42,386 bases of DNA from a virus (IMGVR_UViG_3300006641_000007:1-42386); one strand, 5' to 3'. Positions 2,810-39,839 are shown, counted from the first letter of the stretch. Notes: generated from the letters alone by a model not told the origin. Numbers and translations: made by a program.

Positions 2810-3187
2810 ATGGCGTTCACACCAGCAACCATCTATCAGCCGCAGTTTGCCGCCAATGGCGCAGCTGCGGCGCTAACGTTCTTTCCGTCGTCTGGTGCGG
2901 CCATCGCCACCGGATTGCTATATCAGATCAGTACGGCGTGGGCGGCAAACAACTCATCGTCTCCATGTTGGCTGGAAGTGTACCGGGTGCCGTCTGGTGG
3001 TACCGCTGGTGCGGCTACGAAGATTGGCCCACGCATCACGGTCCCGGTTGCGACTCAGGCGGTGCCCAATATCCCGCTGTCCATGTTGTGGGGAATCTAC
3101 CTCAATCCTGGCGACACGATTCACATGCTGGCGCAAACAGCCAGCGTAATTGTGGTAGAGGCTGATGGTGGAGTATGGACAACCTAA
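2810..3187 (+). CDS. Small beta-rich structural protein, function unknown
   Basis: A 125-residue, almost uncharged protein rich in Ala, Thr, Val and Pro, without a signal peptide. The pattern of alternating hydrophobic and small residues suggests a beta-sandwich such as a decoration or tail accessory protein. No close family is recognised. It starts 23 nt after the fibre gene. No good Shine-Dalgarno sequence is next to the ATG; a TAAACT hexamer lies 7 nt upstream. Its TAA overlaps the ATG of the acetyltransferase gene as TAATG. Confidence 0.6.
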   Translation: MAFTPATIYQPQFAANGAAAALTFFPSSGAAIATGLLYQISTAWAANNSSSPCWLEVYRVPSGGTAGAATKIGPRITVPVATQAVPNIPLSMLWGIYLNPGDTIHMLAQTASVIVVEADGGVWTT

Positions 3188-3681
3188 TGACCGCCGAACT
3201 GACCAAGGTATCACTGAAGCGCGGATTCCCGCTGGAAATGGCGAGTAAGCTCTGGCGCTGGCTGAATTCGCCGCGAGGCCCTAATTTCGATGATTTCGGC
3301 CCGCAGACACAGGCTCAGTTCATGATGGAACTGGCGGTGCGGGTTCGCCGGGAGCGCGCCTGGTCGATCATGGTTGATGGGGAAATCGTTGGTTACCTTG
3401 GCTTTGTCCCTCAGAACCCGATGGCCGGCCAGTTCCACGGCTTGGTGATCGCGCCGGAATATCGGCGGCAGGGGATTGGTCGGGATGCTTTTCGCGAGGC
3501 GATGGAAACATTGCGCGAAGAGGGCTACACCTCGTTTACGTCGATGCCGTTTGCGGACAATCGAGCCATCCATGAGTTGCTGTTTTCGCTCGGATTTCTG
3601 TGGGTCGGGGAACTCCCGAACGCTACGAAACGTGACGGCCAATTGTGTAGCCTGTCAATCTTCCACAAGGAGGTAAGGTAA
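3187..3681 (+). CDS. GNAT family N-acetyltransferase
   Basis: A 164-residue protein expected to transfer an acetyl group from acetyl-CoA to an amine; the substrate is unknown. The acetyl-CoA binding motif A is visible as RRQGIG at residues 93-98, followed by the helix FREAMETLREEGY. The typical C-terminal GNAT pattern of an Asn-containing turn (FADNRAIH) followed by LGF is also present. It lies between virion genes, with a TAATG junction on both sides. The start at 3187 is chosen because it overlaps the previous stop; an ATG at 3175 is an alternative. It may modify a virion protein or a host component. Confidence 0.8.
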   Translation: MTAELTKVSLKRGFPLEMASKLWRWLNSPRGPNFDDFGPQTQAQFMMELAVRVRRERAWSIMVDGEIVGYLGFVPQNPMAGQFHGLVIAPEYRRQGIGRDAFREAMETLREEGYTSFTSMPFADNRAIHELLFSLGFLWVGELPNATKRDGQLCSLSIFHKEVR

Positions 3682-5839: not shown

Positions 5840-7804
5840 ATGCCTGGGCCATGGGAAAAGTACGGCAGTCCACCGGAGCCAGCATCCGGCCCATGGCAGA
5901 AGTATGCGCCTAAAGCACAAACTCCCACTGCGACTGAAGAAGAGGGAGTTGTTCGGGGCTTTCTGAAAAACAGTCCCATTGGCGCGGTTCAAGGAGCGGC
6001 TGAGTTCATTCGTCACCCGATTGAATCGGTAAAGACAATGGGGATACAAAACGCGGCACTCTTTGACAAGGCGGCGCAGTCGTACAAAAAAGGCGATTAC
6101 ACTTCGGCGTTGTTTCACGCGCTGAATTACATGCTACCTGGCGGGGCGGCACTGGATGAGGCAGGTGAAGATTTTGCCAGCGGGAAGACCGCAAAGGGGA
6201 CCGCGAAAACGCTTGGCATCGCATCCACTTTGATTGCTGGGGCGAAGGCACCGCAAATGCTTCAGGCGGCAGGTAAAGCTGTGGACGTGGCCCCAGCGGC
6301 CATCAACGCGATGAAGGCTGGGGCAAAAGCTGCGGCCCCGGATGTTGGCGTAGGAGCCGTAAAGATTGGAGTTGGCGCGGCGCTCCCCAAAATCCCAGGC
6401 GTGTCGTATGGGCTTGAATATGTCGGGGGGAAGCAGATAGTAAGGGGGTTGGGCGAAGGGGTTAAAGCCGCCAGGGAATCAATGGCAGGCGGCAAGCCCA
6501 ATACCGCGCCAGCGCCAGTTGTTGAATCAGCCGCTGTTTCCCCGGAACTGGATGCGCTTGCTGTCAAGGCGGGATTCCCTGATTTCGCCAGTGCGCCAGC
6601 CCAGATCAAGCCCTTGCTGGAAAACGCCAATGCGGCGGAACTGGAGCGGTTGACGCGGACCCCAGCGGCAGAGCCTGTTCCACAATCTCCTGTTGAGCAG
6701 GTTCCTCCCACTGCTCCAGAGGCCGTAGCCGCGCCGCCCCGGACTGTCTCCCCGGAGGCGGTAGGCACTGCGGCCCCGAAACCGCCAGTGTCCGAGGTTC
6801 TGGCAACGGAGGGCAAGACGGCACCGATCACCGACCTTGAACAGCAACTTCAGCAGTCGCTGGAAGGCAAGCGGATCGCCCCGGAAGAACGTGCTGCGCT
6901 GGAAGCCAAAACGAAGGCGCAGGCGGAACTGAAATCTGAACAGATCAAGGCTCGGGAGCAATCCCGGCGTGCGCTGTCTCTCGGGCAGTTCCTCGACCAG
7001 CACGCAATCCCGGTTGACAAAATGGAGCTGATGACGCCGCAGGAGTGGACGCAGGTTGGCAAGCTGGCTGGTGTAGAGAACCCCAGCCCGACCACGGTAA
7101 AGATGGCGATTGAGTACCGCAAGGCGTCTCAGCCTGCCGTGAGTGAAGCGATGGCGACCGAAGGGCCTACGACGGCTGGCGAGGTCATGCAGAAGGTGAA
7201 ACGCGTCAGGGCTTCAAAACCAAAAATCACAAAAGACGCTCCTGCCGCGGAAGTAGTTGAAGAATTGCCGCCTGTTGTAGTTGATGAAAAATTGGCATTG
7301 GAACATCCGGCATCTGCTCGGCATTGGACGCCAAAACTGGAAGCGGCAGGACTTGTTGATGAGCATGGCGCTCGTACACTTGAAATGGCGATGCGCCGTG
7401 AAATGTTGAGCGATAACGAGGTTTTGGCAGTCATCCGACAGGCGACTAAAAACGGGCAGGTACGTGCATCTGGGAAGGAGATTGCCGATGCGTATCAACA
7501 GGTTAGATTGCCAAACCGTGAGCGCATGGCTTTATCTGAGGCGCGGTGGAAAAACTATTCGGAAAATCATCCTGAAGGGCAGTTTATTCGGGAGCCGGAT
7601 ATTGAAACGGCAATTGCCGAGTTTAAGCGGTCACCAGAAACAGCAACAGTGACAGGGGAACCAGTGCGCGATGTGATGGCTCGACATGCTGCGGAAAAAC
7701 AACGGATACTGGACGAAGCCGCAGCGCGGAAAGCCAAAGCCGCTGAACCAGAGAAAAAAACCGTTGGCGAGATCATGAAGAAAACGCGAGGCAAGAAGAA
7801 ATGA
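5840..7804 (+). CDS. Large internal virion (ejection) protein with GPW.KY repeats
   Basis: A 654-residue protein, third of the ejection group. The N-terminus carries two copies of a short motif, GPWEKYG (residues 3-9) and GPWQKYA (17-23), seen at the starts of internal proteins of other podoviruses. Residues 140-230 contain Gly/Ala-rich, moderately hydrophobic segments. The rest is Pro/Ala/Glu-rich linker and charged helix, ending in a Lys-rich tail. No lysozyme or transglycosylase motif is seen. By position it corresponds to P22 gp16. The stop overlaps the tailspike start as ATGA. Confidence 0.6.
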   Translation: MPGPWEKYGSPPEPASGPWQKYAPKAQTPTATEEEGVVRGFLKNSPIGAVQGAAEFIRHPIESVKTMGIQNAALFDKAAQSYKKGDYTSALFHALNYMLPGGAALDEAGEDFASGKTAKGTAKTLGIASTLIAGAKAPQMLQAAGKAVDVAPAAINAMKAGAKAAAPDVGVGAVKIGVGAALPKIPGVSYGLEYVGGKQIVRGLGEGVKAARESMAGGKPNTAPAPVVESAAVSPELDALAVKAGFPDFASAPAQIKPLLENANAAELERLTRTPAAEPVPQSPVEQVPPTAPEAVAAPPRTVSPEAVGTAAPKPPVSEVLATEGKTAPITDLEQQLQQSLEGKRIAPEERAALEAKTKAQAELKSEQIKAREQSRRALSLGQFLDQHAIPVDKMELMTPQEWTQVGKLAGVENPSPTTVKMAIEYRKASQPAVSEAMATEGPTTAGEVMQKVKRVRASKPKITKDAPAAEVVEELPPVVVDEKLALEHPASARHWTPKLEAAGLVDEHGARTLEMAMRREMLSDNEVLAVIRQATKNGQVRASGKEIADAYQQVRLPNRERMALSEARWKNYSENHPEGQFIREPDIETAIAEFKRSPETATVTGEPVRDVMARHAAEKQRILDEAAARKAKAAEPEKKTVGEIMKKTRGKKK

Positions 7805-9951
7805 AACGTATCCTTTGGCTGCTGGCGGCGGTGGCGTTCGCGCAAGATCCCGTCTCCATCACGCCGTACCAGTTGTTAGTCCCGAACGCCTCAAGCGGCC
7901 TGATACAGGCATGTTCCGGGTGCTCCATCTACACCTATGCGGCGGGAACCAACACGCCGCTGGCGACGTATACCAGCAGCACGCTTGGCACTCCGAACAC
8001 CAATCCGGTGCTAACGAACTCCAGCGGCTACGCAGTCAATGGCTCTACGATTACGGGCATCTGGGTTGGTTCGTCCTGCTACAAGTTTGTGGCCAAGGAC
8101 GCCAACGCTGTCACGCTGTGGACGCAGGACAATATCTGCGATCGGGGCGCGGTCCTTCAGGCATTGCTGGCGGCATCATCGGGCGCATCGTTGATTGGGT
8201 TCCAGCCGACTGGCGGCAGTGTCCCGATTACGGTTGCAAGCGCTCTCAACTCGGCATACCTGTATAGCACTGGATATAGCACGCTGGCGCTGGCTTGTTC
8301 TGCCGCTGCGGCGGCCAACAAAACGCTGGCCGTGGTGAGTACGTTTTCCAACTCACCGGCGCAAGCGCTGAATTGCGATCTGTGGTTTCCTTCAGGCGCG
8401 GGGGCTATGATTCAGCCCGCATCAGGCGCGACAATTACGATGTCGACGGGGAGGAACGTTACAGCAGCAGACTTCAAGATCATCGACAGCAGCGCGGGCG
8501 GAACGTTTACTATGCTGCTATCTCCCAGCAGCGCGTCCGTGGCATGGTGGGGCGCGGTGGGCGACGACAGCACGGACAATGCCGCCGCGATCACTTCAGC
8601 GCTGGCCGCGTCTAAGGATGTTCGCTTTCCGTTGGGGATATACAGAAGCAGCACAGCGCAGGCGATCACAGTTACTGGGCAGCGAATCTCCTGCGGCGGC
8701 GGGGCATACTCACCAGCGAATTCTGGCACGACGGTAAAATTCACTGGGGCCACGAGCGGATTCACTGTATCCGGTTCCGGCATCTATGCGAACTCCATCG
8801 AAAACTGCCACATCACAGCCACCAGCGCTACTTCCGTCGATGGGATTCGCCTTACGGGAACGGGAACTGGGGTAGTGAACTGGGCGCTCCGTAATCTGCA
8901 CTTCACGGGAACATGGGAGAAGGCGATTCACGCCGTTTCGTCTGCCGAGAATCTGAAGATCATCGAACCGACTTGCGTGGATATTGAAATTTGCCTGTAC
9001 ATCGAGGGGGTCTCAAACTCCGTCGATATCATCTCTCCGTTGATCGGGGGAACGTACACCAAGGGGCTTGTAGTGGATGATTCGCAAGGCGTTCGAGTGA
9101 TTGGCGGGACTATTCAAGGGACAGCAACGTATTTGGTCGAAAATTCAGGTTCGCCAGAGGGAACTATCTTGATCGGGACATGGCTGGAAGGTGCCGTGAC
9201 GAGCTTGATCGAGTCGTCCTCGCAGTTGACGTTGACTGATGTAATCATCGGCGGTGGTTCATATACCGACCACGGGATTCATCAAAGCGGCGTATCTACA
9301 TTGATGATTACTGGGCTAACGGGCGTGGGCAATCCAGGGGCCAGCAAGTGCCTTGTTCAGTACGACGGCAACGCCAGCGGAAGCGCACAGGGGTTAAGTA
9401 TTACTGGTTCTTATGTCGAGGCTACCGGAGCAACGAGACATGCTATCTGCGTCGGAACAGCCACAACATCATCTTCTGTCACAGTGATCGAAGGGAACCA
9501 TCTCATCACGTCTGTGGGCGATAATATCGTTTTCGATGTTTTTGGTGGGGTTCACTCCATCCGAGGAAACTACTTTACTTCGTCTGGATACAACATCAAC
9601 GCTTCGGCTATGGCAGACGGCAAGCTGATTGTGAATGGAAATAATTTTGCCACAAATGTCGAAAGCGGAGTTCCGGCTGACGCCTACAAGGGGAATTGCA
9701 TCGGATGCACGTATGAGTTTGCATTACCCGGAACGAACGTGAACAATACGCTGATGTCATTTTTCCCTGTCAACGAGACCACTGGGGCACTTGGCACCCG
9801 CGCGCAGATTGGATCATGCACGGCGGCGCGTAAGGGGCTGTCCTTCCCAATATCCGACGCTGATACAGTGGTCTATAATGCCGTTGTGGCTGGTGGCGGC
9901 GCAAATAGTCTGAATATCTGGTGCGATGGAACCAACTGGCGGGCGCACTAA
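7801..9951 (+). CDS. Tailspike-like pectate-lyase-fold beta-helix protein with Sec signal peptide
   Basis: A 716-residue protein. Residues 1-14 look like a Sec signal peptide (Lys-Arg, hydrophobic stretch, AFA before QDP). Residues 15-120 form a Cys-containing N-terminal domain. GAVGDDSTDNAAAI at 251-264 is the hallmark entry of the pectate-lyase-type right-handed beta-helix found in phage tailspikes, and repeated beta-strand turns continue to about 650. Such proteins bind and often cut surface polysaccharide. The start is fixed by the ATGA overlap with the ejection protein gene. A signal peptide on a tailspike is odd, because tail proteins normally assemble in the cytoplasm. The lack of a hydrophilic head-binding N-terminus is also unusual. 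Confidence 0.75.
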   Translation: MKRILWLLAAVAFAQDPVSITPYQLLVPNASSGLIQACSGCSIYTYAAGTNTPLATYTSSTLGTPNTNPVLTNSSGYAVNGSTITGIWVGSSCYKFVAKDANAVTLWTQDNICDRGAVLQALLAASSGASLIGFQPTGGSVPITVASALNSAYLYSTGYSTLALACSAAAAANKTLAVVSTFSNSPAQALNCDLWFPSGAGAMIQPASGATITMSTGRNVTAADFKIIDSSAGGTFTMLLSPSSASVAWWGAVGDDSTDNAAAITSALAASKDVRFPLGIYRSSTAQAITVTGQRISCGGGAYSPANSGTTVKFTGATSGFTVSGSGIYANSIENCHITATSATSVDGIRLTGTGTGVVNWALRNLHFTGTWEKAIHAVSSAENLKIIEPTCVDIEICLYIEGVSNSVDIISPLIGGTYTKGLVVDDSQGVRVIGGTIQGTATYLVENSGSPEGTILIGTWLEGAVTSLIESSSQLTLTDVIIGGGSYTDHGIHQSGVSTLMITGLTGVGNPGASKCLVQYDGNASGSAQGLSITGSYVEATGATRHAICVGTATTSSSVTVIEGNHLITSVGDNIVFDVFGGVHSIRGNYFTSSGYNINASAMADGKLIVNGNNFATNVESGVPADAYKGNCIGCTYEFALPGTNVNNTLMSFFPVNETTGALGTRAQIGSCTAARKGLSFPISDADTVVYNAVVAGGGANSLNIWCDGTNWRAH

Positions 9952-9961
9952 AAGGAGCATC

Positions 9962-10471
9962 ATGAAACGTCTACTACTCATCATCGCTATTGCGCTTCCG
10001 GCGCTGGCGCAGCAGAACATCAACTATGTCGCCACTACCGGCAACGTGTCGCTTAGTGGGGCGGCAACAGCGGCAACGCTTCAGCAGCCCGCGACAGGCG
10101 CAACGACAGTGTTTTTCCCCGTCGCCAATCCGCTCGGAGGACCTGCTTCGGTCGGCGCAACGGTCTATTGCTCGGTAGCCTGCGTGGCTACCGTGGCCCG
10201 CTCCTGCACGACCGCTGCCTCTGCGACGGCCGGAACGGTCACCAGCGTTAATCCGAACGTTCCTGCGGCTTCTGTGACGTTCTGGACAGCATCAAACGCA
10301 TCAGGATGTACCACGCTTCGGGTTCTCAACATTCAGGCGGGGCAGGAATACGCGATTGACCTGAGCACGTTCACGCTGGCGACGACAGGGACAAAATCGA
10401 ACATTACGATTTCCATCGCGTCGATCACCGGAACGGCTAACATTACGTTCTACCCGTGGGAGCAGCACTAA
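9962..10471 (+). CDS. Small exported beta-rich protein, function unknown
   Basis: A 169-residue protein starting with a clear signal peptide (MKRLLLIIAIALPALA, cleavage likely before QQN). The mature part is Ala/Thr/Ser-rich, has four Cys between about residues 70 and 120 and looks like a beta-sandwich. A good Shine-Dalgarno sequence (AAGGAG) lies 4 nt upstream of the ATG at 9962, which makes this start better than the in-frame ATG at 9926. It is the second of four adjacent genes with signal peptides. It may be a fibre subunit or an exported surface protein. Confidence 0.65.
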   Translation: MKRLLLIIAIALPALAQQNINYVATTGNVSLSGAATAATLQQPATGATTVFFPVANPLGGPASVGATVYCSVACVATVARSCTTAASATAGTVTSVNPNVPAASVTFWTASNASGCTTLRVLNIQAGQEYAIDLSTFTLATTGTKSNITISIASITGTANITFYPWEQH

Positions 10472-10959
10472 TGCGCGCCCGAATTGCAGCGATCCTCGCG
10501 GTGCTCCTGTTGTGCATCGTTTCGGTTGAGGCGCAACGACCGGGATCAGGTGCAGGGTATCCCGGTCCGACAGGTGCCACGGGAGCGACTGGGCCGTCCC
10601 TTGCTGTTTTCCGATGGCTGTTTTGTCAGTCTGGTACTTGCAATAACGAAACAACGACCGGCGGTGTACCTGTTCAATTGCCGTCTGGCACCGTCACGCT
10701 CAATGCCTGTTACGTGCTGTATTACGGAGCGATCCCATCAACAACAATCACAATCGATGTCCGAAAGAATGCAACCAGCAGCGGAACTGGTTCCAGTTTG
10801 CTCGGATCGGCGTGGAGTTTTTCGACAGCGACTCTCGGGACGCCGTTAGCATTCGGCGGCAGTTTCGCGGCCACGACGCTGGCCAGCGGAGATCAGGTGA
10901 GCTACTACATGACGGGGACCACTGGACAGGGGATGACAATTTCATGCGCTGGCTCCTAA
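10471..10959 (+). CDS. Small exported protein with collagen-like Gly-X-Y stretch
   Basis: A 162-residue protein. Residues 1-21 form a signal peptide with cleavage likely after VEA. Residues 29-43 are five Gly-X-Y triplets (GYP GPT GAT GAT GPS), as in trimeric phage fibre stalks. Cysteines follow at about 53, 58 and 76, then a beta-rich C-terminus. It starts in a TAATG overlap and ends 16 nt inside the esterase gene. The Gly-X-Y stretch suggests a trimer. No enzymatic motif is visible. Confidence 0.65.
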   Translation: MRARIAAILAVLLLCIVSVEAQRPGSGAGYPGPTGATGATGPSLAVFRWLFCQSGTCNNETTTGGVPVQLPSGTVTLNACYVLYYGAIPSTTITIDVRKNATSSGTGSSLLGSAWSFSTATLGTPLAFGGSFAATTLASGDQVSYYMTGTTGQGMTISCAGS

Positions 10960-13034
10960 TATCGCTGCTGGCGACCGGGCTACAAGCCGCCAACTTCACC
11001 TACGTATCTGGCGCGGTGGCGACTGACGGCGTGACTGTTACGCTGAATTTCACCGCGCCTGTATCGTGTCTTGGATTGACGCCTACATCTAATGTTCCTG
11101 GCTTCTCAGTGTACGAGGGGACCAGCGGGGCCGGTGCCGTGTATCCGACTACTACGACTGCGACGAAGGCGATTACGGCGGCGTGCGATGGCGGAACGGC
11201 GGTTACGGTCACTATGGTGCTACTGACGCCGGTGCGGTCAGGGATCACCGTTAAGGGAAGTTGGAATTACTCCTCTACATCCACACTGACGGATACCGCA
11301 GCAGACACAATTGCGGTGAATGCCGCGGCCACGCTCACGAACAATTCAACAGTGAGCGCAACCGCGTTTGAATACAACAACGCGGCGATCAAGTATGCCG
11401 GAAGGTGGACCAGTGGCGGCACGTATGTTTCCAGCTCATCCACAGACGCTCAGATCGAGTTTCAGTTCACCGGCACGGCGCTGCATCTCAATACCTTCAT
11501 GGATCTGGCAATCTGGAAGTACAGCATTGACGGCGCGGCTGTTCAAACGCTCGACGTGACCGCATCGGTCGGGTACAACGCGAACGCGAACGGGTTATAT
11601 CCATTGGCCACAGGGCTTTCGGATGCTTCGCACACTGCCACCCTGATGAAAAATACACTGTCCGGGTTCGGAACCACGACCGGGCTGGTGGTGCAAGGGG
11701 CAAGTCCGGCGTTGACGATATTCACAGGGTATGGCTCCGAATACCCGATATCCGGGGTTGCATCGACGATTAGCCCCACACTTTCGACGTACTCACCCAC
11801 AGCAGGAGCCCCCGGTCTGGGATTAGTGGACCCCGGTAATGGTTATGGCCTGACAGCGGAAACGCATACAGGTGGCGGCCTTCAGTTTGTATCCAACTCC
11901 TGTACTGATATTTGGCTATATGTCTTTCGCGGCGGAGGGTCTTCGTGGCGTGCCTATGTAGACGGCACGTTGACCAGCACTACGGCAATCCCATCGGGAA
12001 CCACTACAGTGGGCAGTTCGTATTCGTGGCTCCAGCTTTTGACTGGTCTATCCGGCACTAAATCAATCCAGATATCCCTGTACGGCACATACCCGATCGT
12101 ATCCACCACCGCCTACGTGTTCTCCGTAATGTGTGGAGGTGCCGGAACAATCTCAACAACCACGATCCCGGCAAAAGGGAGTGTTACCTGGCTGGGCGAT
12201 TCGCTGATGGCGTCGGCGACTACCAGCACAAGCCAAACCAGTTACCAGCAACTGCTGACAACCGCGACATCACATCCCGCCACTATTGGGCTTCCCGTCT
12301 ACCCTACCGCGCGACAATATGGCCAGTCCGGTGCGTCGTGCGCGACCGTCAGCACGTCTACGGCTGGTATGTATATTGATTCTCGCGTGGTCCTGGCGGT
12401 AGTGGGATGCGGCACTAACGATGCCATAATTGGCACGGCTAGCGGGACGGTAACAACAAATGTAAATACGCTGCTGACCAACACCAACGCCGCGTTGAAT
12501 ACGGCGGGACTGGGCGCATCGGTTCCGATCTTGTTCCAGATTCCTCCAAACACTTCGGCGGTTTCACAAGCGACCCTCGATAACTATCGGGCGTACATCC
12601 GAACGGGGATAGCCAACTACAACGCTGGTGCGCCGACGCACCTTGCCTATACAGCAGAAACGGAAGGATGGATCAGCACCGCCACTTCGGCAGTCTCGGC
12701 TGCAACTTGGTCGAGCGGCACCGCAACATACACGGTCGGCAGCACTGCCGGAATCTCCGCACTCTATCCGATATCGGTTTTGGGTATCACCCCGTCCGGC
12801 TACAACACCATATCCTGCACGCCGGGAAGCATCACCGCTACCCAATTCACTTGCCCAATCGTCGCCAATCCAGGAGCCTATTCAAGCGGCGGGACGATGG
12901 GCGTAGATACGACGGACGGCACGCATCCGAATGATGGGGGCAGTATGAAGATGGCGTCCCGTTATCTTCCTTGGTTTCAGCGTTTATTGTTTGGATGCAG
13001 AAACGGAGGTAACGCCTGTAATGGGGGACAATAA
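10944..13034 (+). CDS. Exported SGNH/GDSL-type esterase, tail-associated candidate
   Basis: A 696-residue protein. Residues 1-16 form a signal peptide (cleavage near LQA). Residues 17-135 look Ig-like, and 140-400 form beta-sandwich or carbohydrate-binding-like domains. The SGNH hydrolase domain follows: block I GDS with the nucleophile Ser420, a Gly in GQSG (460-463), block III GxND with Asn492, and block V DGTH with Asp658 and His661. All four catalytic blocks are present. Phage tail enzymes of this fold remove acetyl groups from surface polysaccharide. A 65-residue insertion separates the last blocks. The start at 10944 has AGGGGA 10 nt upstream and overlaps the previous gene by 16 nt. Confidence 0.8.
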   Translation: MRWLLISLLATGLQAANFTYVSGAVATDGVTVTLNFTAPVSCLGLTPTSNVPGFSVYEGTSGAGAVYPTTTTATKAITAACDGGTAVTVTMVLLTPVRSGITVKGSWNYSSTSTLTDTAADTIAVNAAATLTNNSTVSATAFEYNNAAIKYAGRWTSGGTYVSSSSTDAQIEFQFTGTALHLNTFMDLAIWKYSIDGAAVQTLDVTASVGYNANANGLYPLATGLSDASHTATLMKNTLSGFGTTTGLVVQGASPALTIFTGYGSEYPISGVASTISPTLSTYSPTAGAPGLGLVDPGNGYGLTAETHTGGGLQFVSNSCTDIWLYVFRGGGSSWRAYVDGTLTSTTAIPSGTTTVGSSYSWLQLLTGLSGTKSIQISLYGTYPIVSTTAYVFSVMCGGAGTISTTTIPAKGSVTWLGDSLMASATTSTSQTSYQQLLTTATSHPATIGLPVYPTARQYGQSGASCATVSTSTAGMYIDSRVVLAVVGCGTNDAIIGTASGTVTTNVNTLLTNTNAALNTAGLGASVPILFQIPPNTSAVSQATLDNYRAYIRTGIANYNAGAPTHLAYTAETEGWISTATSAVSAATWSSGTATYTVGSTAGISALYPISVLGITPSGYNTISCTPGSITATQFTCPIVANPGAYSSGGTMGVDTTDGTHPNDGGSMKMASRYLPWFQRLLFGCRNGGNACNGGQ

Positions 13035-13037
13035 ATC

Positions 13038-13124
13038 ATGGTCACCCTGATTGCCATTGTCGGACTGCTGGCGGCATCGCTGCTGACGGTCTACGTTCTG
13101 TGCAGGTTTGGTGGTGACGAATGA
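13038..13124 (+). CDS. 28-residue single-span membrane peptide
   Basis: A tiny gene just after the esterase encodes one hydrophobic helix (residues 3-22) followed by a short CRFGGDE tail. The stop overlaps the start of the next membrane gene as ATGA, which supports translation. No family is recognised. By position it belongs to the lysis-like group. Confidence 0.45.
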   Translation: MVTLIAIVGLLAASLLTVYVLCRFGGDE

Positions 13125-13348
13125 GGAAAATGGACCCAATCCTGAAACTGCTGCTACTCGGCATTGTGTTCTTCACTGTGGTATTGCTCTACACGCAGAA
13201 ATGGTTCCCGAATGACGGGCAGACGTTTCAGGTGGTGGCTGGCCTGCTGACCAGCTTCGGCGGCGCGTTTCTAGCATTCGCCCGCAAGGAACTTGGCGTT
13301 CCCGACGAACCGAAAGGGGGAGCGCCGGATGAGCAACCGAAGCCCTGA
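13121..13348 (+). CDS. Holin-like small membrane protein, two predicted spans
   Basis: A 75-residue protein with hydrophobic segments at about 7-24 and 36-53, a positive N-terminus and a charged, Pro-rich C-terminal tail. This size and topology match class II holins, which permeabilise the inner membrane at lysis. It sits in a run of overlapping small membrane-protein genes after the tail genes. No sequence family is recognised, so the holin call rests on architecture and context. Confidence 0.55.
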   Translation: MRKMDPILKLLLLGIVFFTVVLLYTQKWFPNDGQTFQVVAGLLTSFGGAFLAFARKELGVPDEPKGGAPDEQPKP

Positions 13349-13646
13349 GCCAGCGGAAACAGCGGAGGTTCGATTCACGGCGGCGAACGTCGCGCAGTTG
13401 GCGCGGATTGAGTCACACACTCAGCGGCACGATGAAAAGCTCGATGACCTGGCGGATTCAATCCGCGAAATCAAGCTCCTCATGACTGCCAAATTTCAAG
13501 AGATCGAGAAGACCATCGACGACGCGCGGGCTCGGATTGACCAGATTGAGCGGGTGCATATCCGCTGGATCGCGGGCGGGGCAACGCTGGGGGCTGTAGC
13601 TGCGGGCCTGTTCGGCTTGCTGAAGTTCGTCTTGAATCGCGGGTGA
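13329..13646 (+). CDS. XhlA-like coiled-coil protein with C-terminal membrane anchor
   Basis: A 105-residue protein with a heptad-patterned coiled coil over residues 20-75 and one C-terminal transmembrane helix at about 82-101. This is the architecture of the XhlA haemolysin/holin-accessory family of Bacillus PBSX. AAAGGGGGAG lies just upstream of the ATG. It overlaps the holin-like gene by 20 nt, and the following gene starts in a GTGA overlap. Family membership is suggested by architecture only. Confidence 0.55.
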   Translation: MSNRSPEPAETAEVRFTAANVAQLARIESHTQRHDEKLDDLADSIREIKLLMTAKFQEIEKTIDDARARIDQIERVHIRWIAGGATLGAVAAGLFGLLKFVLNRG

Positions 13647-14280: not shown

Positions 14281-14844
14281 GTGATACGCCTCTGGCTCAT
14301 TTCGCTGGCACTCGAAGCCGTCCTTGCCGTGCTCCTAACACGCAGGGGCGGCTTTGCTGCGTTCCGGCGGTTCCTCTGGTACGATGTGGCCACGCAAGGG
14401 CTGGGGATCGCTTGTAGCGGCTCTGGCGCGTGGTATCCGCTGGTTCACAGGTGGAGCGAAGCGGGGGCCGTGGTGCTGTTGGGGTTCGTCGTGGCGGAGC
14501 GGTTGCGAACTATCCGGGAATCCCGGAAGGTTGCCACATCCGGCGTGGCAATCGCTACATCCGGCGTGGCGGGCTGCTGTCTGCATCTGATCTTCGCCGC
14601 GCCGGTTCCGTGGTCCGCGTGGGCTTCGGCAGTCTGGCAGGGAATCGCGCTTTCGCACTCGATCATGGGGATTCTGCTGTTGAGTGCGGGGGCCGGGGTG
14701 GTATCGCGGATACTGGCTGTCTGGTTGCTGGCCGATGCCGCGCTGTTCTACGTCGCTCCGCACTGGCCTGTCGGCATGGCGGTGCTCTGGCTCAACGCGG
14801 GGACTTGGGCGGCGCTGGCCATGCTGGCTTCCAAATGCGCCTGA
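14281..14844 (+). CDS. Multi-span membrane protein, function unknown
   Basis: A 187-residue, very hydrophobic protein with about five predicted membrane segments (near 3-18, 55-70, 95-108, 118-160 and 165-185). No family is recognised. It is the last rightward gene before the leftward operon and could be part of lysis or superinfection functions. It contains two in-frame copies of ATSGVA from a 21-nt tandem duplication. The GTG start at 14281 lacks a clear Shine-Dalgarno sequence, so the start is uncertain. The last 53 nt overlap the end of the convergent gene. Confidence 0.5.
   Translation: MIRLWLISLALEAVLAVLLTRRGGFAAFRRFLWYDVATQGLGIACSGSGAWYPLVHRWSEAGAVVLLGFVVAERLRTIRESRKVATSGVAIATSGVAGCCLHLIFAAPVPWSAWASAVWQGIALSHSIMGILLLSAGAGVVSRILAVWLLADAALFYVAPHWPVGMAVLWLNAGTWAALAMLASKCA
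14536..14570. repeat. 21-nt-period tandem duplication inside the membrane gene
   Basis: ACATCCGGCGTGGC occurs at 14536-14549 and again at 14557-14570. The period of 21 nt keeps the frame and duplicates ATSGVA. Confidence 0.8.
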
Positions 14845-22777: not shown

Positions 22778-22923
22778 CGCCCGCGATTCAGCGGTGCCGG
22801 AACGAACAGCGGCAAGCGGCCACGTTGCTTTTGGCTGGGCACCATGAGCAACACGGGCTACGCATGGCGGTGACGGATTGGATACTGGAGGAGATTTTGT
22901 TGGAGGACACATGCAGTCAGTAG
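22774..22923 (+). CDS. 49-residue helical protein
   Basis: A short protein with two amphipathic helices (RCRNEQRQAATLLLAG and MAVTDWILEEILLE). It starts in an ATGA overlap and ends 13 nt inside the helicase-methyltransferase gene, whose Shine-Dalgarno sequence (TTGGAGGAC) it contains. Function is unknown. Confidence 0.5.
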   Translation: MTPAIQRCRNEQRQAATLLLAGHHEQHGLRMAVTDWILEEILLEDTCSQ

Positions 22924-25256
22924 TGGACGAATATCAGGAGTACCTGGCGGGGAAACTGGTATCGGCACCGGCAAGCGGGTTCGAGGTTGCAGAATCCGAG
23001 TTGAACTCGCGGCTGATGCCGTGGCAACGGCGGATTGTGGCGTGGGCGTGCAAGCGCGGGAAAGCGGCGCTACTGCCAGATACCGGCACAGGCAAGACGT
23101 TCATGCAGCTGGAATGGGCGCACCGGGTTTGCTTGTTCACTGGAGGCGACGTGCTGATTTTGGCACCATTGGCGGTTGCCAATCAAACCGCAAGGGAAGC
23201 GGCAAAGTTCCAGATAGGCACGCCGGTCACGGTTTGCCGAACGATGGCAGATGTGCGGCCAGGTATCAACGTCACCAATTACGAGATGCTGGAGCACTTC
23301 GACACGGCGCACTTCGCCGGGGTGGTTCTGGACGAATCGTCTATTTTGAAGTCATATTCCGGAACCACGAAAAAGGCGCTGGTGGCAGCATTCGCGCTGA
23401 CTCCGTACAAGCTGGCATGTACCGCAACGCCAGCGCCTAACGACCACATGGAGATCGGCAATCACGCGCAGTTTCTGGACGTGATGAGTTCGTCGGAAAT
23501 GCTTTCCCGCTGGTTCCTGAATGACACCATGAAAGCGGGGGGCTACAGGCTCAAAGCGCACGCGGTCAAGGACTTTTGGCGCTGGGTAGCGACGTGGGCG
23601 GTTACACTGTCTAAGCCGTCTGATATTGGCTTCTCCGATGAAGGCTACGACCTTCCGCCGCTGGAGATTCTGCAACACGTCGTTGAGGTGGACCAGTCCA
23701 TAGCAACTGAAGGCATGCTGTTCCGTTCGCCGGATCTGAGCGCAACCGGGCTACACAAGGAAATGCGGCTGACTGCACCGGCGCGGGCTGCGAAGGTGGC
23801 GGAGATTATCGCGCTTCGCCCGGATGAGCAATGGCTGGTGTGGTGCAACACGGATTACGAGGCTGACGAACTGGCGGCGCGGATCGACGGGTTGACCGAA
23901 GTCCGCGGCAGTCATTCGCGGGCGCATAAAGAGGCTGCAATGTTGGGGTTCTCGGAAGGGGCGGTTCGTGTTTTCTCCAGCAAGCCTGTCCTCTGCGGGT
24001 TTGGGATGAATTGGCAGAACTGCCGCAACGTGATTTTCGTTGGGCTGAGCTACAGTTACGAACAGTTCTATCAGGCACTCCGCCGATGCTGGCGGTACGG
24101 CCAAACGCGGGCAGTCACGGCGCATGTGGTTTGCGCGGAAACCGAGGGCCCTGTGTTGGCCACAATCGAACGGAAACGTAAGGACCACGAAAACATGAAG
24201 GCTGAAATGATTGAGGCGATGCGCGGTCAAACGATGGAGCAATTGGGAGTCGGCCCGAAACTGAAGACGGATTTCGAGCGCGACATTCGCACAGGCAATG
24301 GCTGGGAGATTCGACTTGGTGACTCCGTGGAGTTGTTGCGCGAGGTTCCGGATGGTCAGATTGACCTGTCTGTTTTTTCGCCGCCGTTTGCCAATCTCTA
24401 CATCTACTCCGACTCCGTGCGCGACATGGGCAACACTGCCAACGATGCCGAATTCTTCCGGGCGTTCGGCTTCATCGCGAAGGAGCTTTACCGCGCTACC
24501 AAGTCCGGGCGGCTGGCCGTGATCCACTGCAAAGACCTGCCGACGTATCGCGGGCGGGATGGTGCCAGCGGTCTGAAGGACTTTCCGGGCGATATCGTCA
24601 GGTTGTTCGAGGCACACGGATGGGACTTTCATTCCCGCGTGACGATCTGGAAGTGCCCGGTCACTGAGCGGGAGCGAACGAACAATAACGGATTGCTCCA
24701 CAAGTCAGTGACGCGGGATTCCAGCCAAATACGTCAAGGCATGGCGGATTATTTGATTGTCATGCGGAAAACTCCGAATGGCGATAGCAATCTGTCGGAA
24801 GTGCCAATCGCACGACCGGAAGGGTTTACGCGCTACGAGGGAGAATCGGACCCGCGCAAGAACAGTTTCCATCCGTCACCGTTCGCACGCACCGAGTTCG
24901 ACGGCAAGCGGGACTCTATCGCGATCTGGCGGCGCTACGCTGAGCCTGTTTGGTGGGATATCAATCAGACCGACGTGCTGAATGTGAAAACTTCCCGAAC
25001 TGAGAACGAAGAGCGACACATATGCCCGTTGCAGATGGGCGTAATTCGTCGCGCAATCGAGTTGTGGAGTCTTCCGGGCGAGTTGGTGTTCTCTCCATTC
25101 GGCGGCATCGGGTCGGAAGGCGTGGGGGCGCTGGAAATGGGGCGCAAGGCACTGCTGTTCGAGCTGAAGCGGGAGTACTTCCAGATTGCCACGCGGAATC
25201 TGGACGCGGCAGAAGTGCAGGAAACACTGTTCGATTTTGGAGGGAACGATGAGTAA
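22911..25256 (+). CDS. SNF2-like helicase fused to a beta-class DNA methyltransferase
   Basis: A 781-residue, two-part enzyme. Residues 30-420 form a superfamily 2 helicase: PWQRRI (Q-like, 37-42), Walker A DTGTGKT (57-63), motif II DESS (141-144), motif III TATP (171-174) and motif VI around QALRRCWRYGQTR (388-400). Residues 455-781 form a methyltransferase with motif IV SPPF (490-493) before motif I SPFGGIG (728-734), the order of beta-class enzymes; SPPF suggests N4-cytosine or N6-adenine. The two are fused in one frame with a Lys/Glu-rich linker (420-450). It may methylate phage DNA as protection from restriction while moving along DNA. No restriction partner is visible. Confidence 0.85.
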   Translation: MQSVVDEYQEYLAGKLVSAPASGFEVAESELNSRLMPWQRRIVAWACKRGKAALLPDTGTGKTFMQLEWAHRVCLFTGGDVLILAPLAVANQTAREAAKFQIGTPVTVCRTMADVRPGINVTNYEMLEHFDTAHFAGVVLDESSILKSYSGTTKKALVAAFALTPYKLACTATPAPNDHMEIGNHAQFLDVMSSSEMLSRWFLNDTMKAGGYRLKAHAVKDFWRWVATWAVTLSKPSDIGFSDEGYDLPPLEILQHVVEVDQSIATEGMLFRSPDLSATGLHKEMRLTAPARAAKVAEIIALRPDEQWLVWCNTDYEADELAARIDGLTEVRGSHSRAHKEAAMLGFSEGAVRVFSSKPVLCGFGMNWQNCRNVIFVGLSYSYEQFYQALRRCWRYGQTRAVTAHVVCAETEGPVLATIERKRKDHENMKAEMIEAMRGQTMEQLGVGPKLKTDFERDIRTGNGWEIRLGDSVELLREVPDGQIDLSVFSPPFANLYIYSDSVRDMGNTANDAEFFRAFGFIAKELYRATKSGRLAVIHCKDLPTYRGRDGASGLKDFPGDIVRLFEAHGWDFHSRVTIWKCPVTERERTNNNGLLHKSVTRDSSQIRQGMADYLIVMRKTPNGDSNLSEVPIARPEGFTRYEGESDPRKNSFHPSPFARTEFDGKRDSIAIWRRYAEPVWWDINQTDVLNVKTSRTENEERHICPLQMGVIRRAIELWSLPGELVFSPFGGIGSEGVGALEMGRKALLFELKREYFQIATRNLDAAEVQETLFDFGGNDE

Positions 25257-32959: not shown

Positions 32960-33955
32960 ATGCCATTACTCACCCAAACCAACGGCGGAAGTCTTCAGAA
33001 TTCCACGCTGGCCACCATCAACACGATTGCGGCGTCGATCTTCCCGTCTCAGGGGAACATCTACTTTGTCGCACCGTACAGCGGGAGCGACAGGAACCCC
33101 GGTACCGTCGCCGCGCCGTTCAAGACTTTGGCTTTCGCGCTTTCACAGGCGACGGCTGGCCAGAACGATGTTATCTACCTGCTGGCGCAGTCGAATACTG
33201 CCGCAAACACGACGGATTACCAGACGGCCACGCTGAACTGGAACAAGGACCTGGTGCATTTGGTCGGCGTCAACGATTCGCCGTTTCTTGGCCAGCGTTC
33301 GCGTGTGGCGTTCGATTCGGCCTATGCGACGGCCTCAAACCTTTTCACGCTGTCAGCTAACGGGTGCCTCATCAGTGGCATCAGCTTTTTCGCTGGTGTT
33401 GCATCCGCGCTTCCGACTGGTTGTATGCAGGTCACCGGCCAACGCAACCGCATTGTCAACTGCCAGATTTCCGGCATGGGGAACAGCGCGAACGACATCA
33501 GCGGAGCATATTCGCTGTATCTGAACGGCGCGGCGGAAAACGTTTTTGAGAATTGCTACATCGGGCTGGACACGGTTACGCTCGGCGCTCAGGCGAATTC
33601 CCAGATCAAGTGCGCATCGGCGGCGACCCGCAACCTGTTCAGCGATTGCCAGATCGTGACGTACACCAACCACGCGACGAATAACAACTTTCTGCGGTGC
33701 CCGACTTCAAGTCTGGACCGCTGGTTGGAATTCTCAAACTGCCGGTTTGTCAACCCGATCGATTCCAGTTCCACCAACCTGACGCAGGCCTTCATCGTGG
33801 CATCGGATGCGGGCGGAACTGTGTTGCTGACGGGCGGAAACACTGGCGTTTTGGGCGCAACTGACTGGAATTCGACCGATAGCGGCAACGTTACGGCGAT
33901 CAACGGCACAGTGACGGCTGGCACTTACGGGCTGGCGGTTGACGTGACCAGGTAG
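32960..33955 (+). CDS. Right-handed beta-helix protein between terminase and portal
   Basis: A 331-residue protein. NIYFVAPYSGSDRNPGTVAAPFKTLAFAL (split here for its parts: NIYFVAPYSGSDRN, then APFKTLAFAL) at about 33-61 is typical of DUF1565 and pectate-lyase-like beta-helices; repeated strand-turn units with conserved Asn and Cys follow to 250, and a Thr/Gly-rich end. No signal peptide. It is probably a virion surface or head-fibre protein, but a tailspike-like depolymerase is possible. It is the last gene before a strong terminator, so it can be expressed apart from the head genes. Confidence 0.65.
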   Translation: MPLLTQTNGGSLQNSTLATINTIAASIFPSQGNIYFVAPYSGSDRNPGTVAAPFKTLAFALSQATAGQNDVIYLLAQSNTAANTTDYQTATLNWNKDLVHLVGVNDSPFLGQRSRVAFDSAYATASNLFTLSANGCLISGISFFAGVASALPTGCMQVTGQRNRIVNCQISGMGNSANDISGAYSLYLNGAAENVFENCYIGLDTVTLGAQANSQIKCASAATRNLFSDCQIVTYTNHATNNNFLRCPTSSLDRWLEFSNCRFVNPIDSSSTNLTQAFIVASDAGGTVLLTGGNTGVLGATDWNSTDSGNVTAINGTVTAGTYGLAVDVTR

Positions 33956-34522: not shown

Positions 34523-34708
34523 ATGACTAAGGTTTCGTGGTTGTTGATAATTTTCGGTATACCAATGGCGTCCATGCCAGCGGCATATCAATTGTTGCAC
34601 CCAGATGCGACTACATTCCGAGCCGTGATTGAAACAGCCCCCTATTCCATTGCTGGACCTTTAATGGTATGGGCTGGATTCCTGATCTTTAAAAGTTTAG
34701 AGGAATAA
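34523..34708 (+). CDS. 61-residue membrane protein with two spans
   Basis: Hydrophobic segments at about 5-22 and 42-57. It starts right after the previous TAA, and its stop overlaps the portal ATG (TAATG). Function is unknown; a small membrane protein in a head operon is unusual. Confidence 0.5.
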   Translation: MTKVSWLLIIFGIPMASMPAAYQLLHPDATTFRAVIETAPYSIAGPLMVWAGFLIFKSLEE

Positions 34709-36849
34709 TGCCGACCATCGCCCGCAAAGATATCCCGCAGTTCGTCCGCCGCTGTTACGATGCCTGGAAAAAGGCCGGAATTCAGACGCGGATGGAGGAG
34801 ACAGAGCGGCTCAAGTTCTATGCGGGCGGTGATGGGCAATGGCGGGATGCGGAGATTCAGAAGCGCCGCGACTCAGGGCGTCCATGGATCACGATAAACA
34901 AGTGCAAGCCGCCTGTTGACCAGATCGAGGGCGATATCAGGCTGAATCCTCCGGGGCCGAGCGTCAAGCCGGTTGGGGAAGTGGCAGATGCGGCAGACCC
35001 GGATATCATTGCTGGCCTGATTCGGGAAACGGAGTACCGCAGCAGCGCGGTAAGCGCGTATAGCACGGCTGGCAAGTACGTTGCGGCATCTGGTTGCGCT
35101 TATCTGGAGTTGGCGACGGAGTACGTTTCCGATACCAGTTTCGCGCAGCAGTTGCGGATTGACGCAATTGAAGACCCTGCGATGGTGTTCTTCGATCCTG
35201 CGTCCCGAAGGCTGGATCGGCGGGATGCAACGTGGGCTGGCAAGATTCGGATGCTCTCCAAGGAGCAGTATGAGGCTACGTTCGGAAAGCGGCGGGTGCT
35301 GGAACCTGCGGGGGTGCAGATTGCGGCGGGCTGGATTCAGGACGCTCTTGGAATCGGCGGCAACATGGCCGAAATCAACGAATGGACCGGCATGGGGAAG
35401 GGTCCATTCTACGTTGTTGAGTTTTATCTGGTAGAGACGAACCCGACGAAGTTGCGGCTGTACTCCAACGGGATCAGTTACTTCGATGACGAGACAAGGC
35501 CAGATGGAATTGTGCCGAAGGGTGGAGAAGAAAACACCCGCATCGTGCCGCGCCGCGTGGTCACCAAGTTCGTAGTGGATGCGTTGGAGATTTTGGACGA
35601 GACGGAATGGTTGGGGGATATGATCCCGATATTCCCGGTACTCGGCCCAGAGGTCTACATCGATGGACGGCTTCACCGGCTGAGCCTGATTGCGGGCGCG
35701 ATGGATTCTCAGCGGGCGCTGAACTATGTTGCGACCACGGCGGCGGAACTGACCGGGGCGCTACCCAAGGCGCCGTGGATTGGGCCGAAGGGATCGTTTG
35801 AAGATCAGCGCTGGGAATCGGCCAATTCGGAGATGTGGGCGTATTTGGAATACACTCCGGTTTTCGTCACCGACGAAACGACGGGCGGCCAGACGCTTGC
35901 GCCAGCCCCGCAGCGCAACATGTGGGAAGCGCCGATTCAATGGCTGATGATGTTGGGGCAGTGGTACAGCGACAACATCAAGGCGACGACATCAATCTAC
36001 GATGCTTCGCTTGGGCGTGAAAAGGGCGATCAGTCAGGCAAGGCGATTGAGCAACTGCGGAGTGAGTCGAATGTTGCCAACTTCAGTTACGCCGACAATC
36101 TGCACCGGGCGATTGAGGTGATGTACCAGCAGATGTGCATTATCTTCCCGAAAATTTTGGACGGCCCGCGCGTCGTGCAGATTGTGCGGCCCGATTCGCA
36201 GCATGAGACAGTGCGAATCAATCAGATTTTTGGGGAAGATGGAATCGACCCGCAGACGGGGAAGAAGGGGAAGGCGAACAATATTGCGCTTGGCCAGTAC
36301 TCTTGTCGCGTTGTGGCTGGCCCGAACTTCCAGACCCGTCAGGACCAGGCACTCCAGATGTTGCTGGATGCGGTCAAGATCAACCCGAACATCCTTGCGA
36401 ATCCGGCAGTTACGGCAAAGTTGGTGCGGATGATTGGGCAGGGTAACCCGGAAATGGAAGGCATCGCGGATATCATTGCGCCGAACGATTCCGACTCCAA
36501 CCCGCAGCAGATGGCACAGCAGATGCAACAGATGGCGGCGCAGAATCAGCAACTTATCCAGGCCGTGCAGGCGCTGCAAATGGAAATCAAGACGCAGGCT
36601 CCGAAACTGGCTCTGGAGAAGTACAAAGCAGATCAGGACGCGGCGGTGAAGTTGGCGGTGGCCGAAATCGGTGCCAAGAATCAGGCGGCGGCGCGGGCCT
36701 CGGCGGATGAACTGGCGACACGGCAAATGCATGAAGAGATGGCGCACGATGTGGCTATGGCAGCGCAGAATCAGGAACACGCGCAGGAGAACATGGCAGT
36801 AGAACAGCAGCGGGAATCAGTGCAAGCGAATCAGGAGACAACTGAATGA
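34708..36849 (+). CDS. P22-like portal protein
   Basis: A 713-residue protein, close to P22 gp1 (725 aa). Family segments include WRDAEIQKRRDSGRPWITIN and a following VDQIEGDIRLNPP (about 48-82), conserved in this portal group. The last 120 residues are a Gln/Ala-rich helix (MAQQMQQMAAQNQQ) that matches the extended helical barrel of P22 portals. It forms the dodecameric DNA channel at one capsid vertex, binding terminase and then the gp4 ring. The stop overlaps the scaffold start (ATGA). Confidence 0.9.
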   Translation: MPTIARKDIPQFVRRCYDAWKKAGIQTRMEETERLKFYAGGDGQWRDAEIQKRRDSGRPWITINKCKPPVDQIEGDIRLNPPGPSVKPVGEVADAADPDIIAGLIRETEYRSSAVSAYSTAGKYVAASGCAYLELATEYVSDTSFAQQLRIDAIEDPAMVFFDPASRRLDRRDATWAGKIRMLSKEQYEATFGKRRVLEPAGVQIAAGWIQDALGIGGNMAEINEWTGMGKGPFYVVEFYLVETNPTKLRLYSNGISYFDDETRPDGIVPKGGEENTRIVPRRVVTKFVVDALEILDETEWLGDMIPIFPVLGPEVYIDGRLHRLSLIAGAMDSQRALNYVATTAAELTGALPKAPWIGPKGSFEDQRWESANSEMWAYLEYTPVFVTDETTGGQTLAPAPQRNMWEAPIQWLMMLGQWYSDNIKATTSIYDASLGREKGDQSGKAIEQLRSESNVANFSYADNLHRAIEVMYQQMCIIFPKILDGPRVVQIVRPDSQHETVRINQIFGEDGIDPQTGKKGKANNIALGQYSCRVVAGPNFQTRQDQALQMLLDAVKINPNILANPAVTAKLVRMIGQGNPEMEGIADIIAPNDSDSNPQQMAQQMQQMAAQNQQLIQAVQALQMEIKTQAPKLALEKYKADQDAAVKLAVAEIGAKNQAAARASADELATRQMHEEMAHDVAMAAQNQEHAQENMAVEQQRESVQANQETTE

Positions 36850-37864: not shown

Positions 37865-39100
37865 ATGCCAATCAATTCGGTTCCAGTACGGCAAGAAGTC
37901 ACTGCTGAAGTCTTGCGCGTGCTGATGAACAACTGTTTCGCGTTACGGATGATCCGTCGCGAACACCAGAAGTACTTCGAGCAGAGTACTCCAATCGGGA
38001 CAACTCTGCAAATCAAACGTCCGTGGCGTCCCCAGGGTCGTCAGGGACAGGCTTTCCAGCCGGAACCCATCGTCCAGACCACCGTCCCGCTGTCCATTTC
38101 GTACTGGCGCGGCGGCGATTTCGTCTACAACGATACCGACGAAGCCCTGTTCCTCGACATGGGCAACTTCCACCGCAACTATTCGATGCCGATGGGCGTC
38201 ATGATCGCTAACCAGATCGACTCTGATCTGCTGGCTTTCATGCAGGTCACGGCCCCGAACTTTGTGGGGACTCCCGGCACTCTTCCGACCACAACGGCGG
38301 TTTACAACTCGGCGCAGACCAGCCTTAATAAGCTGCTTGCACCGCAGAACGATCGCGCTGTGATTTACACGTCGGAATACAACCAGAACCTCGTCGGCGC
38401 AGGTCAAACGCTGTTCAACCCGGCGCGCGACATCAGCGACCAGTACCTCGAAGGGTATGTTGGCAAGTACGCCGGTTTCAAGTTCGGCATTGACGAACAG
38501 ATTCCTGGCTTCACCGTCGGCACCTACGCTGGTACGGGCCGCGTCAATGGCGCGAGTCAATCGGGAACCAGCCTCATCACCGATGGATGGACCGCTTCGA
38601 GCCTCAGCCTGAACCCCGGCGACCGGTTCACCATCGCTGGCTGCTACAAAGTGAATCCGAGCGGTACTCACGTTGCGTACTCCGGTACTGCCAACCTGAT
38701 GCAGTTCGTGGTCACGGCGGCGGTCACCGATTCGAGCGGCGATGCAACGATCCAGATTTACCCGCCGATCATTCCTTCGGGGCAATTCCAGAACTGCACG
38801 GCTCCAGCCGATAACGCTGTAATCACCATTGCTGGCGCTTCGGGGTCTTCGTGCAACACGGCTTTCTACCTTCAGCAGGATGCGTACACCGCCGCCTTCC
38901 TGAAGCTGCACAAGCCGTCTAACGTGGAATGCACCGTCATGGGCGGCGAAGAGTCGGGCACGCCCGGCATCTACCTCCGCAATATTCGTCAGTGGCAGTC
39001 GAGCGGCCCTTACCAGGGCTACGAGACCGACCGCACGGATGTGATCTACGGGTTCGCCCCGCAGTACGCGGATTACATGGCGGGGGTTATCTACGGTTAA
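37865..39100 (+). CDS. Major capsid protein, P22 coat type
   Basis: A 411-residue protein (P22 gp5 is 430 aa). The N-terminal arm and HK97-fold region include IRREHQKYFEQ and GTTLQIKRPWRPQGRQGQAF. A beta-rich stretch with NPGDRFTIAGCYKVNP and VTDSSGDATIQIYPPII (about 240-310) resembles the P22 coat accessory segment. AGGAGCG precedes the ATG. It follows the scaffold by 59 nt. Confidence 0.85.
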   Translation: MPINSVPVRQEVTAEVLRVLMNNCFALRMIRREHQKYFEQSTPIGTTLQIKRPWRPQGRQGQAFQPEPIVQTTVPLSISYWRGGDFVYNDTDEALFLDMGNFHRNYSMPMGVMIANQIDSDLLAFMQVTAPNFVGTPGTLPTTTAVYNSAQTSLNKLLAPQNDRAVIYTSEYNQNLVGAGQTLFNPARDISDQYLEGYVGKYAGFKFGIDEQIPGFTVGTYAGTGRVNGASQSGTSLITDGWTASSLSLNPGDRFTIAGCYKVNPSGTHVAYSGTANLMQFVVTAAVTDSSGDATIQIYPPIIPSGQFQNCTAPADNAVITIAGASGSSCNTAFYLQQDAYTAAFLKLHKPSNVECTVMGGEESGTPGIYLRNIRQWQSSGPYQGYETDRTDVIYGFAPQYADYMAGVIYG

Positions 39101-39119: not shown

Positions 39120-39839
39120 ATGGCTTCCACAATCACTCAAACCACACTTTCCGGTTCCATCAACCAGAACGCCCTCGTTCTGACGGTGGCTTCCGCAACC
39201 AACATCACGGCACCCGTCGCGAACTTCCAACAGTCGATTTACGTCATCAACCCGGACCAGACCAAGGGCGAGTTGATGTACGTAACCGGCGTCAGCGGTA
39301 CGCAGATTTCGGTGGCCCGTTCCAGCCTCTTCCGGCAAAGCTTTTACACCGGCGCGATTATCATCATCGCCCCGGCTCCGGTTGCAGGCTCCGCGTTCGG
39401 CGGCAACTTCAACGGCGGTTTCTTCGAGACCGATCCCGTTGGAGATCCGAGCGTGTCCGGCTCCTATCCGGGCGCTCCCGTCGTCACTCCGTGGGTTAAC
39501 GTCACCAACGGCAACCAATGGCTTCAGGGCATCAACGGCCAGTGGGTTCCCGGTTGGAACAATCCGAGCGGGATCAAGGGCGTAACAGCGGCGGTGGCTT
39601 CGGCTGCTGGCGCTATCACGCCTTCCGGCCCGCTGTTCCACGTAACGGGCACCGCAGCGGTCACTGGGTTTACCATCCCGGTCGGCTTCTCTGGCGGTTC
39701 GTTCACCATCATTCCCGATGGCGTTTTCACCTGGACTACGGCAGGAAATATCGGCTTGGCCGGTACCGCTGTCGTTAGCCGGTCGTTGACGTTCACCTGG
39801 GACAGCAACGCTGGCAAGTTCTATCCTTCGTACGTCTAA
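39120..39839 (+). CDS. Coat-adjacent structural (decoration-like) protein
   Basis: A 239-residue protein with few charges and beta-rich, Gly/Thr/Val-rich composition. The N-terminal half (ALVLTVASATNI, GELMYVTGVSGTQISVAR) looks like a phage Ig-like or tail-decoration domain. TAGAGGAG lies before the ATG. Position straight after the coat gene suggests a decoration or head fibre. Confidence 0.6.
   Translation: MASTITQTTLSGSINQNALVLTVASATNITAPVANFQQSIYVINPDQTKGELMYVTGVSGTQISVARSSLFRQSFYTGAIIIIAPAPVAGSAFGGNFNGGFFETDPVGDPSVSGSYPGAPVVTPWVNVTNGNQWLQGINGQWVPGWNNPSGIKGVTAAVASAAGAITPSGPLFHVTGTAAVTGFTIPVGFSGGSFTIIPDGVFTWTTAGNIGLAGTAVVSRSLTFTWDSNAGKFYPSYV

Follow-up and report, generated by a model that had tools for sequence, protein, structure and literature searches.

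Four adjacent genes of a soil-type, P22-like podovirus, at positions 7801–13034 on the plus strand of the 42,386-bp IMG/VR virus record IMGVR_UViG_3300006641_000007 (the window, by which we mean the whole stretch analyzed), begin with predicted signal peptides (SPs) of the Sec/signal peptidase I (SPase I) type, and the first of them encodes what its profile matches identify as a genuine tailspike with a virion anchor domain. We consider it probable that this phage, whose host is probably a member of the Acidobacteriota, exports the tailspike and its three neighbors through Sec, and that the spikes become disulfide-bonded and dock onto virions at lysis. Export and oxidative folding are well supported by the comparison of homologs set out below.

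Signal peptides on four adjacent genes

In the tailspike (7801–9951, 716 residues), alignment with homologs places an SP at residues 1–14 (encoded by 7801–7842 and ending in AFA before Gln) in front of the anchor, or head-binding, domain (residues ∼25–113), which is followed by a 600-residue C-terminal part. Gene 2 (9962–10471, 169 residues) codes for a predicted β-sandwich, gene 3 (10471–10959, 162 residues) for a protein with a short collagen-like stretch and 4 cysteines in its mature form, and gene 4 (10944–13034, 696 residues) for a protein with a CE2_N-like jelly roll, SGNH/GDSL-type motifs, and 10 mature cysteines. With ↓ marking the predicted cleavage site, the N-termini read MKRILWLLAAVAFA↓QDPV at 7801, MKRLLLIIAIALPALA↓QQNI at 9962, MRARIAAILAVLLLCIVSVEA↓QRPG at 10471, and MRWLLISLLATGLQA↓ANFT at 10944; three of the four thus have Gln at position +1, in line with the original prediction, made from the window's sequence, that these SPs are mostly followed by Gln.

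SPs were called with a rule-based scorer that considers the charge of the n-region, an 8-residue hydrophobic core (h-core), and an AxA-type site. Applied to 46 window genes, it matched these four and one more, a multi-transmembrane protein at 14281, and found no SP on the head, portal, or ejection genes. When the first 45 residues were shuffled, the match rate was 1.5% across all genes and 7–10% for these leucine-rich N-termini; the chance of four side-by-side matches among 46 genes is 2.6e-4. In a control run on 200 kb of E. coli sequence, the matches were nearly all annotated exported, lipo-, or membrane proteins. The scorer, the shuffles, and the E. coli control together indicate that the n-h-c signal architecture with an AxA-type site is present in all four proteins, and the SPs that had been proposed at these N-termini are borne out by both the scorer and the homologs.

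Could the start of the tailspike have been mis-called, so that the true start lies downstream and the SP arises by accident from translating the overlap before it? The ATG at 7801 does overlap the previous stop codon and has a weak Shine-Dalgarno sequence: each of the four ATGs is preceded by a purine-rich or Shine-Dalgarno-like stretch, of which that at 9962 (AAAGGAG) is the best and that at 7801 the weakest. However, the region between the SP and the domain contains no start codon that has a ribosome-binding site, the Shine-Dalgarno sequence of gene 2 is strong, and the spikes of several relatives, among them G010, L002, L086, and L144, carry an SP in the corresponding position, encoded by different DNA. 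For these reasons the explanation, to which we give almost no credence, was rejected.

One of these relatives, G010, has an anchor domain 76% identical to that of the window spike and reads MTGKYLLLALLATAAFA↓QDPVSITPYQ, so that the signal sequence differs from MKRILWLLAAVAFA while the boundary is the same; the next two genes after its spike also encode SPs, giving a set of spike, gene 2, and a collagen-like gene 3. L002 (49% over the best segment) carries SPs on the spike, gene 2, and two further genes, and L171 has four SP genes in a row. Overall, 12.7% of the neighbors of SP-bearing spikes encode SPs, as against 0.8% around SP-less spikes (p = 2e-4). The four-gene set of the window, which the original prediction had proposed to look for in related phages, is not itself conserved: the combinations in G010 and L002 differ from it, and no relative of the putative gene 4 esterase was found in the viral contigs or phages searched.

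Gene 2 belongs to a family of which all eight members found (37–77% identical to the window member) have both an SP and a YCSxAC motif, with a nearly invariant Gln at +1. Its predicted β-sandwich (mean confidence score, pLDDT, of 80) resembles uncharacterized small proteins of tailed phages; no match was obtained in the PDB, and no relative of the gene among GTDB genomes. On two further contigs (L042 and L043, in each case at 8.3–13.6 kb), gene 2 heads runs of SP genes that include proteins of 1205 and 1242 residues with PKD and laminin-G domains. The Gly-X-Y repeats ascribed to gene 3 are present but short (GPTGATGATG, about four triplets); its positional counterpart in G010 has an SP, a longer Gly-X-Y stretch, and another C-terminal domain. 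In gene 4, called an SGNH esterase in the original prediction, the corresponding motifs occur in the right order (GDS at 418, GQSG at 460, GTND at 490, and DGTH at 658, following the GDS, GxSG, GTND, DxxH pattern), and its Pfam matches are sub-threshold, both for CE2_N (residues ∼165–245; 2.6e-5, 24.7 bits against a cut-off of 27.9) and for GDSL (0.01, 16.8 bits against 32.9).

Anchor domain and cysteines of the tailspike family

Residues ∼25–113 of the window spike match the N-terminal part of the tailspikes of Rhodoferax phage P26218, Xanthomonas phage PBR31, Thalassomonas phage BA3, and others. Profiles built from two alignments (A1 and A4) match the tailspike head-binding domain of PDB 7eeq (6.6e-16) and the tail spike of PDB 9vyg (3.5e-14), so that what had been called a tailspike-like protein carries a bona fide virion head-binding domain behind its SP; as to the trimeric β-helix receptor-binding part expected of a P22-like spike, no Pfam domain was found. 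In the spikes of these cultured phages the domain stands at the protein start without an SP, and SP-less homologs begin ∼25–29 residues before the (L/I)YTYxAGT motif; thus, in alignment A1, a domain that starts at residue 1 in most phages is preceded in the window spike by a 14-residue SP. Within the domain the window spike has C38-x-x-C41, C93, and C113, and the mature protein has 16 cysteines in all.

Because a working SP implies folding in an oxidizing compartment, the cysteine pattern of the homologs provides a test that could have failed. The homolog set combines the best 80 of ∼500 anchor-domain relatives from each of two scans into 108 non-redundant rows, of which 16 have an SP and 92 do not. 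A CxxC takes the place of PLxGG in 11 of the 16 SP-bearing spikes and in none of the 92 others (Fisher 1e-11; because the rows are related and their tree is poorly resolved, this and the following p-values are guides rather than exact values), and Gln stands at +1 in 10 of the 11 CxxC-type spikes. In an earlier subset, the median cysteine content is 1.7% in SP-bearing and 0.26% in SP-less spikes (p = 4e-5). Mature cysteine counts are even in 30 of 32 SP proteins, compared with 45 of 88 non-SP open reading frames (ORFs) of the same contigs; for spikes alone, the figures are 16 of 17 with an SP and 23 of 50 SP-less homologs that have cysteines (p = 3e-4). The mature numbers vary from 2 to 22, in pairs. 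This pattern supports, as independent evidence from the homologs, the view that the predicted SPs work. A chance or compositional origin of the N-termini was rejected on three grounds: the shuffles, the retention of the SP in relatives whose signal sequence differs, and the association with cysteines.

The same observations bear on whether the hydrophobic N-termini might instead be uncleaved and structural, acting as an anchor that fits its tail into the tail adaptor or inserts it into the outer membrane during entry. Some podovirus spikes do start with variable N-terminal peptides, and the cleavage described here is a prediction from sequence. Nevertheless, the same n-h-c organization with AxA↓Q recurs on unrelated proteins (spike, β-sandwich, collagen-like protein, and esterase), and a structural N-terminus predicts neither the gain of CxxC, nor even cysteine numbers, nor the clustering of SP-coding neighbors; we regard this explanation as highly improbable.

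A less improbable, though still unlikely, alternative accepts export and disulfide bonding but holds that the spike has ceased to be a virion part, or has a second role besides, being a free or cell-surface lectin, depolymerase, or esterase that would strip or mask receptors for superinfection exclusion or for freeing progeny from extracellular polymeric substances. SPs and cysteines fit it equally well, an SGNH/CE2-like enzyme and a β-rich small protein would be co-exported, and the gp40 esterase of phage PBR31 has an SP and was suggested by its authors to act in lysis (PMC10975493). Against it, the core motifs of the head-binding domain (YTYxAGT, NTNP, YK, and DN) are kept in every SP-bearing form found, in the same family as the SP-less spikes, whereas an unused domain should decay, and no other homolog of the window spike was recognized in the window.

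Proposed assembly route and host

In the assembly route that we favor, the N-terminal SP would be cut at the AxA site, usually exposing Gln, and the mature proteins would fold in the oxidizing periplasm, where, as the comparative evidence suggests, their cysteines pair, including the CxxC of the head-binding domain. The spikes would wait there while heads and tail tubes, made of proteins lacking SPs, assemble in the cytoplasm. Once the inner membrane and the wall fail at lysis, the spikes would dock through the head-binding domain and the virions would be finished extracytoplasmically. Gene 2, gene 3, and the SGNH/CE2-like esterase, likewise exported in this scheme, may be further surface parts or enzymes acting on envelope polysaccharides. 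Whereas Sec export, cleavage before Gln, and periplasmic disulfide formation are what we infer from the sequences and their homologs, the docking of exported spikes on virions is suggested by analogy, because the heads and tail parts of P22 reportedly join in vitro (a 1967 study, cited in PMC2989905 and PMC3741392). The idea in the original prediction that the virion acquires these proteins outside the cytoplasm thus draws support from the homologs (head-binding domain, CxxC, even cysteine numbers, and SP clustering), with docking as its conjectural part. The further idea of a secreted depolymerase system with the esterase and the collagen-like protein as partners of the spike gained no such support, nor did release into the medium ahead of lysis.

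Several points weigh against this route. Export is predicted here from sequence, and the head-binding domain might persist as a relic of evolution on a spike that is secreted and nothing more. In addition, exporting the spike would keep it apart from the heads until lysis, an apparent cost. Five SP-bearing spikes lack the CxxC, and that of L243 has an odd number of cysteines (7). A 331-residue protein near the portal (32960–33955), similar to one in L039 (∼7.5–8.7 kb), has 8 cysteines (2.4%) and no SP; cysteine richness by itself is non-specific for export. Given the kinship among the rows, the counts used for the Fisher test and for parity are partly dependent on one another. On the best tree of the anchor domain, which is short and poorly supported, the SP changes six times with one change forced, and we claim no number of independent gains. 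Finally, an AlphaFold2 model of the tailspike built from three sequences has a pLDDT of 36 and no readable disulfide geometry.

A scan of GTDB genomes with the alignment of CxxC spikes returned 17 loci. The Acidobacteriota account for three of them (in Edaphobacter aggregans DSM 19364, Ca. Acidiferrales, and Acidicapsa dinghuensis), each with an SP; 13 of the 14 others have none, the exception being a Hyphomicrobiales metagenome-assembled genome with a likely SP. The Ca. Acidiferrales and Acidicapsa genomes, besides their SP-bearing spikes, hold portals homologous to that of the window (31% and 29%, respectively). Because SP-bearing spikes are found in all three Acidobacteriota loci and the portal in two, the host of the window phage would be a member of the Acidobacteriota. 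AxA↓Q near the site is seen in 49% (19/39) of Acidicapsa SPs and 28% (7/25) of E. coli SPs, a trend only, given that the scorer slightly favors Gln.

The spike may not be the only component concerned. The protein encoded directly 3′ of the coat gene has no SP in the window (39120–39839, plus strand) and its clade, yet its homolog in an Acidicapsa prophage (L279:10910–11938, minus strand; E = 4e-6 to 39120–39839) does, as does the gene at the post-coat place in L039 (6255–7091). This suggests that SP addition to an outer virion protein occurred in more than one component.

The rest of the window is that of a P22-like podovirus, with a terminase and an ejection protein besides the head-closure/tail protein (phrog_578, Hc3; 19–1569), the P22-type portal (phrog_156, 2e-92; 34708–36849), and the major head (coat) protein (phrog_283, 3e-43; 37865–39100). 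The last three, all on the plus strand, lack SPs, and the head-closure protein is read as a case of ordinary cytoplasmic assembly. A 70-base exact direct repeat, present at both ends, indicates that the sequence is probably a complete genome assembled as a circle. By eye, a 793-residue ORF (22878–25256) looks like an SNF2-type helicase with a DNA methyltransferase behind it in a single protein, and a GNAT-like acetyltransferase lies within the tail module (3175–3681), at a place comparable to that of the annotated acetyltransferase PBR31_00028. Behind the esterase, small membrane proteins (13121–13646) resemble a holin-like lysis cassette.

Relation to known phage systems

The window spike shares its N-terminal head-binding domain with the tailspikes of P22-like phages (P22, Sf6, and HK620; 7eeq and 9vyg), and the gene order, P22-type portal, and phrog_283 coat are also common to these phages; it differs in its predicted cleavable Sec signal, its CxxC, its cysteine richness, and the adjacent SP genes. 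Phages PBR31 and P26218 have the same anchor domain on spikes without SP or CxxC, and in each the first or second gene downstream of the spike codes for an SP protein with 2 mature cysteines (PBR31_00035 and P26218_24; L046 8088–8897 and L044 7661–8170). The completion of tailed-phage virions is generally assigned to the cytoplasm. The coat proteins pIII and pVIII of filamentous phages are Sec-exported virion proteins before assembly, as is proposed for the window spike, but filamentous phages assemble during extrusion at the membrane and have no capsid filled in the cytoplasm.

Phage Sec substrates as such are already known. Among late phage proteins that use the host Sec pathway, as proposed for the window proteins, are exported endolysins such as Lys44 of fOg44 (reviewed in PMC6116005) and Lom of phage lambda (PMC12309495), which are lysis enzymes and a host outer-membrane protein rather than virion receptor-binding proteins. 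Porphyromonas phages encode "Q-rule" SP proteins (PMC10367356) in which an SP followed by Gln at +1 is, as in the window, adapted to the host Sec/SPase I machinery; these are phages of Bacteroidota and the proteins are of unknown function, whereas in the window the tailspike itself is concerned. High Q-values have been described for Bacteroidetes in a paper that does not mention Acidobacteria (PMC5837995). The absence of an SP has even been used as an argument for the phage origin of receptor-binding-type proteins (PMC6199706). Of an SP on a tailspike with a head-binding domain we found no report in the open-access literature, a body that omits most subscription papers and preprints.

Whether tailed phages of Acidobacteriota are in general completed outside the cytoplasm, with spikes (and, in some members, the post-coat protein) that would be Sec-exported, disulfide-locked, and docked at lysis, we judge to be evenly poised. 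If virions are indeed completed extracytoplasmically, this would be a new assembly route, with a second compartment in which Caudoviricetes virions are built; the Sec and disulfide machinery of the host would join the phage host factors, and the supply of spikes would be separate from capsid assembly. Periplasmic spikes would have access to disulfide bonds and could better withstand harsh soils. The combination of SP, CxxC, and even cysteine number may serve as a sequence rule by which to recognize such proteins and may help to assign phages to Acidobacteriota.

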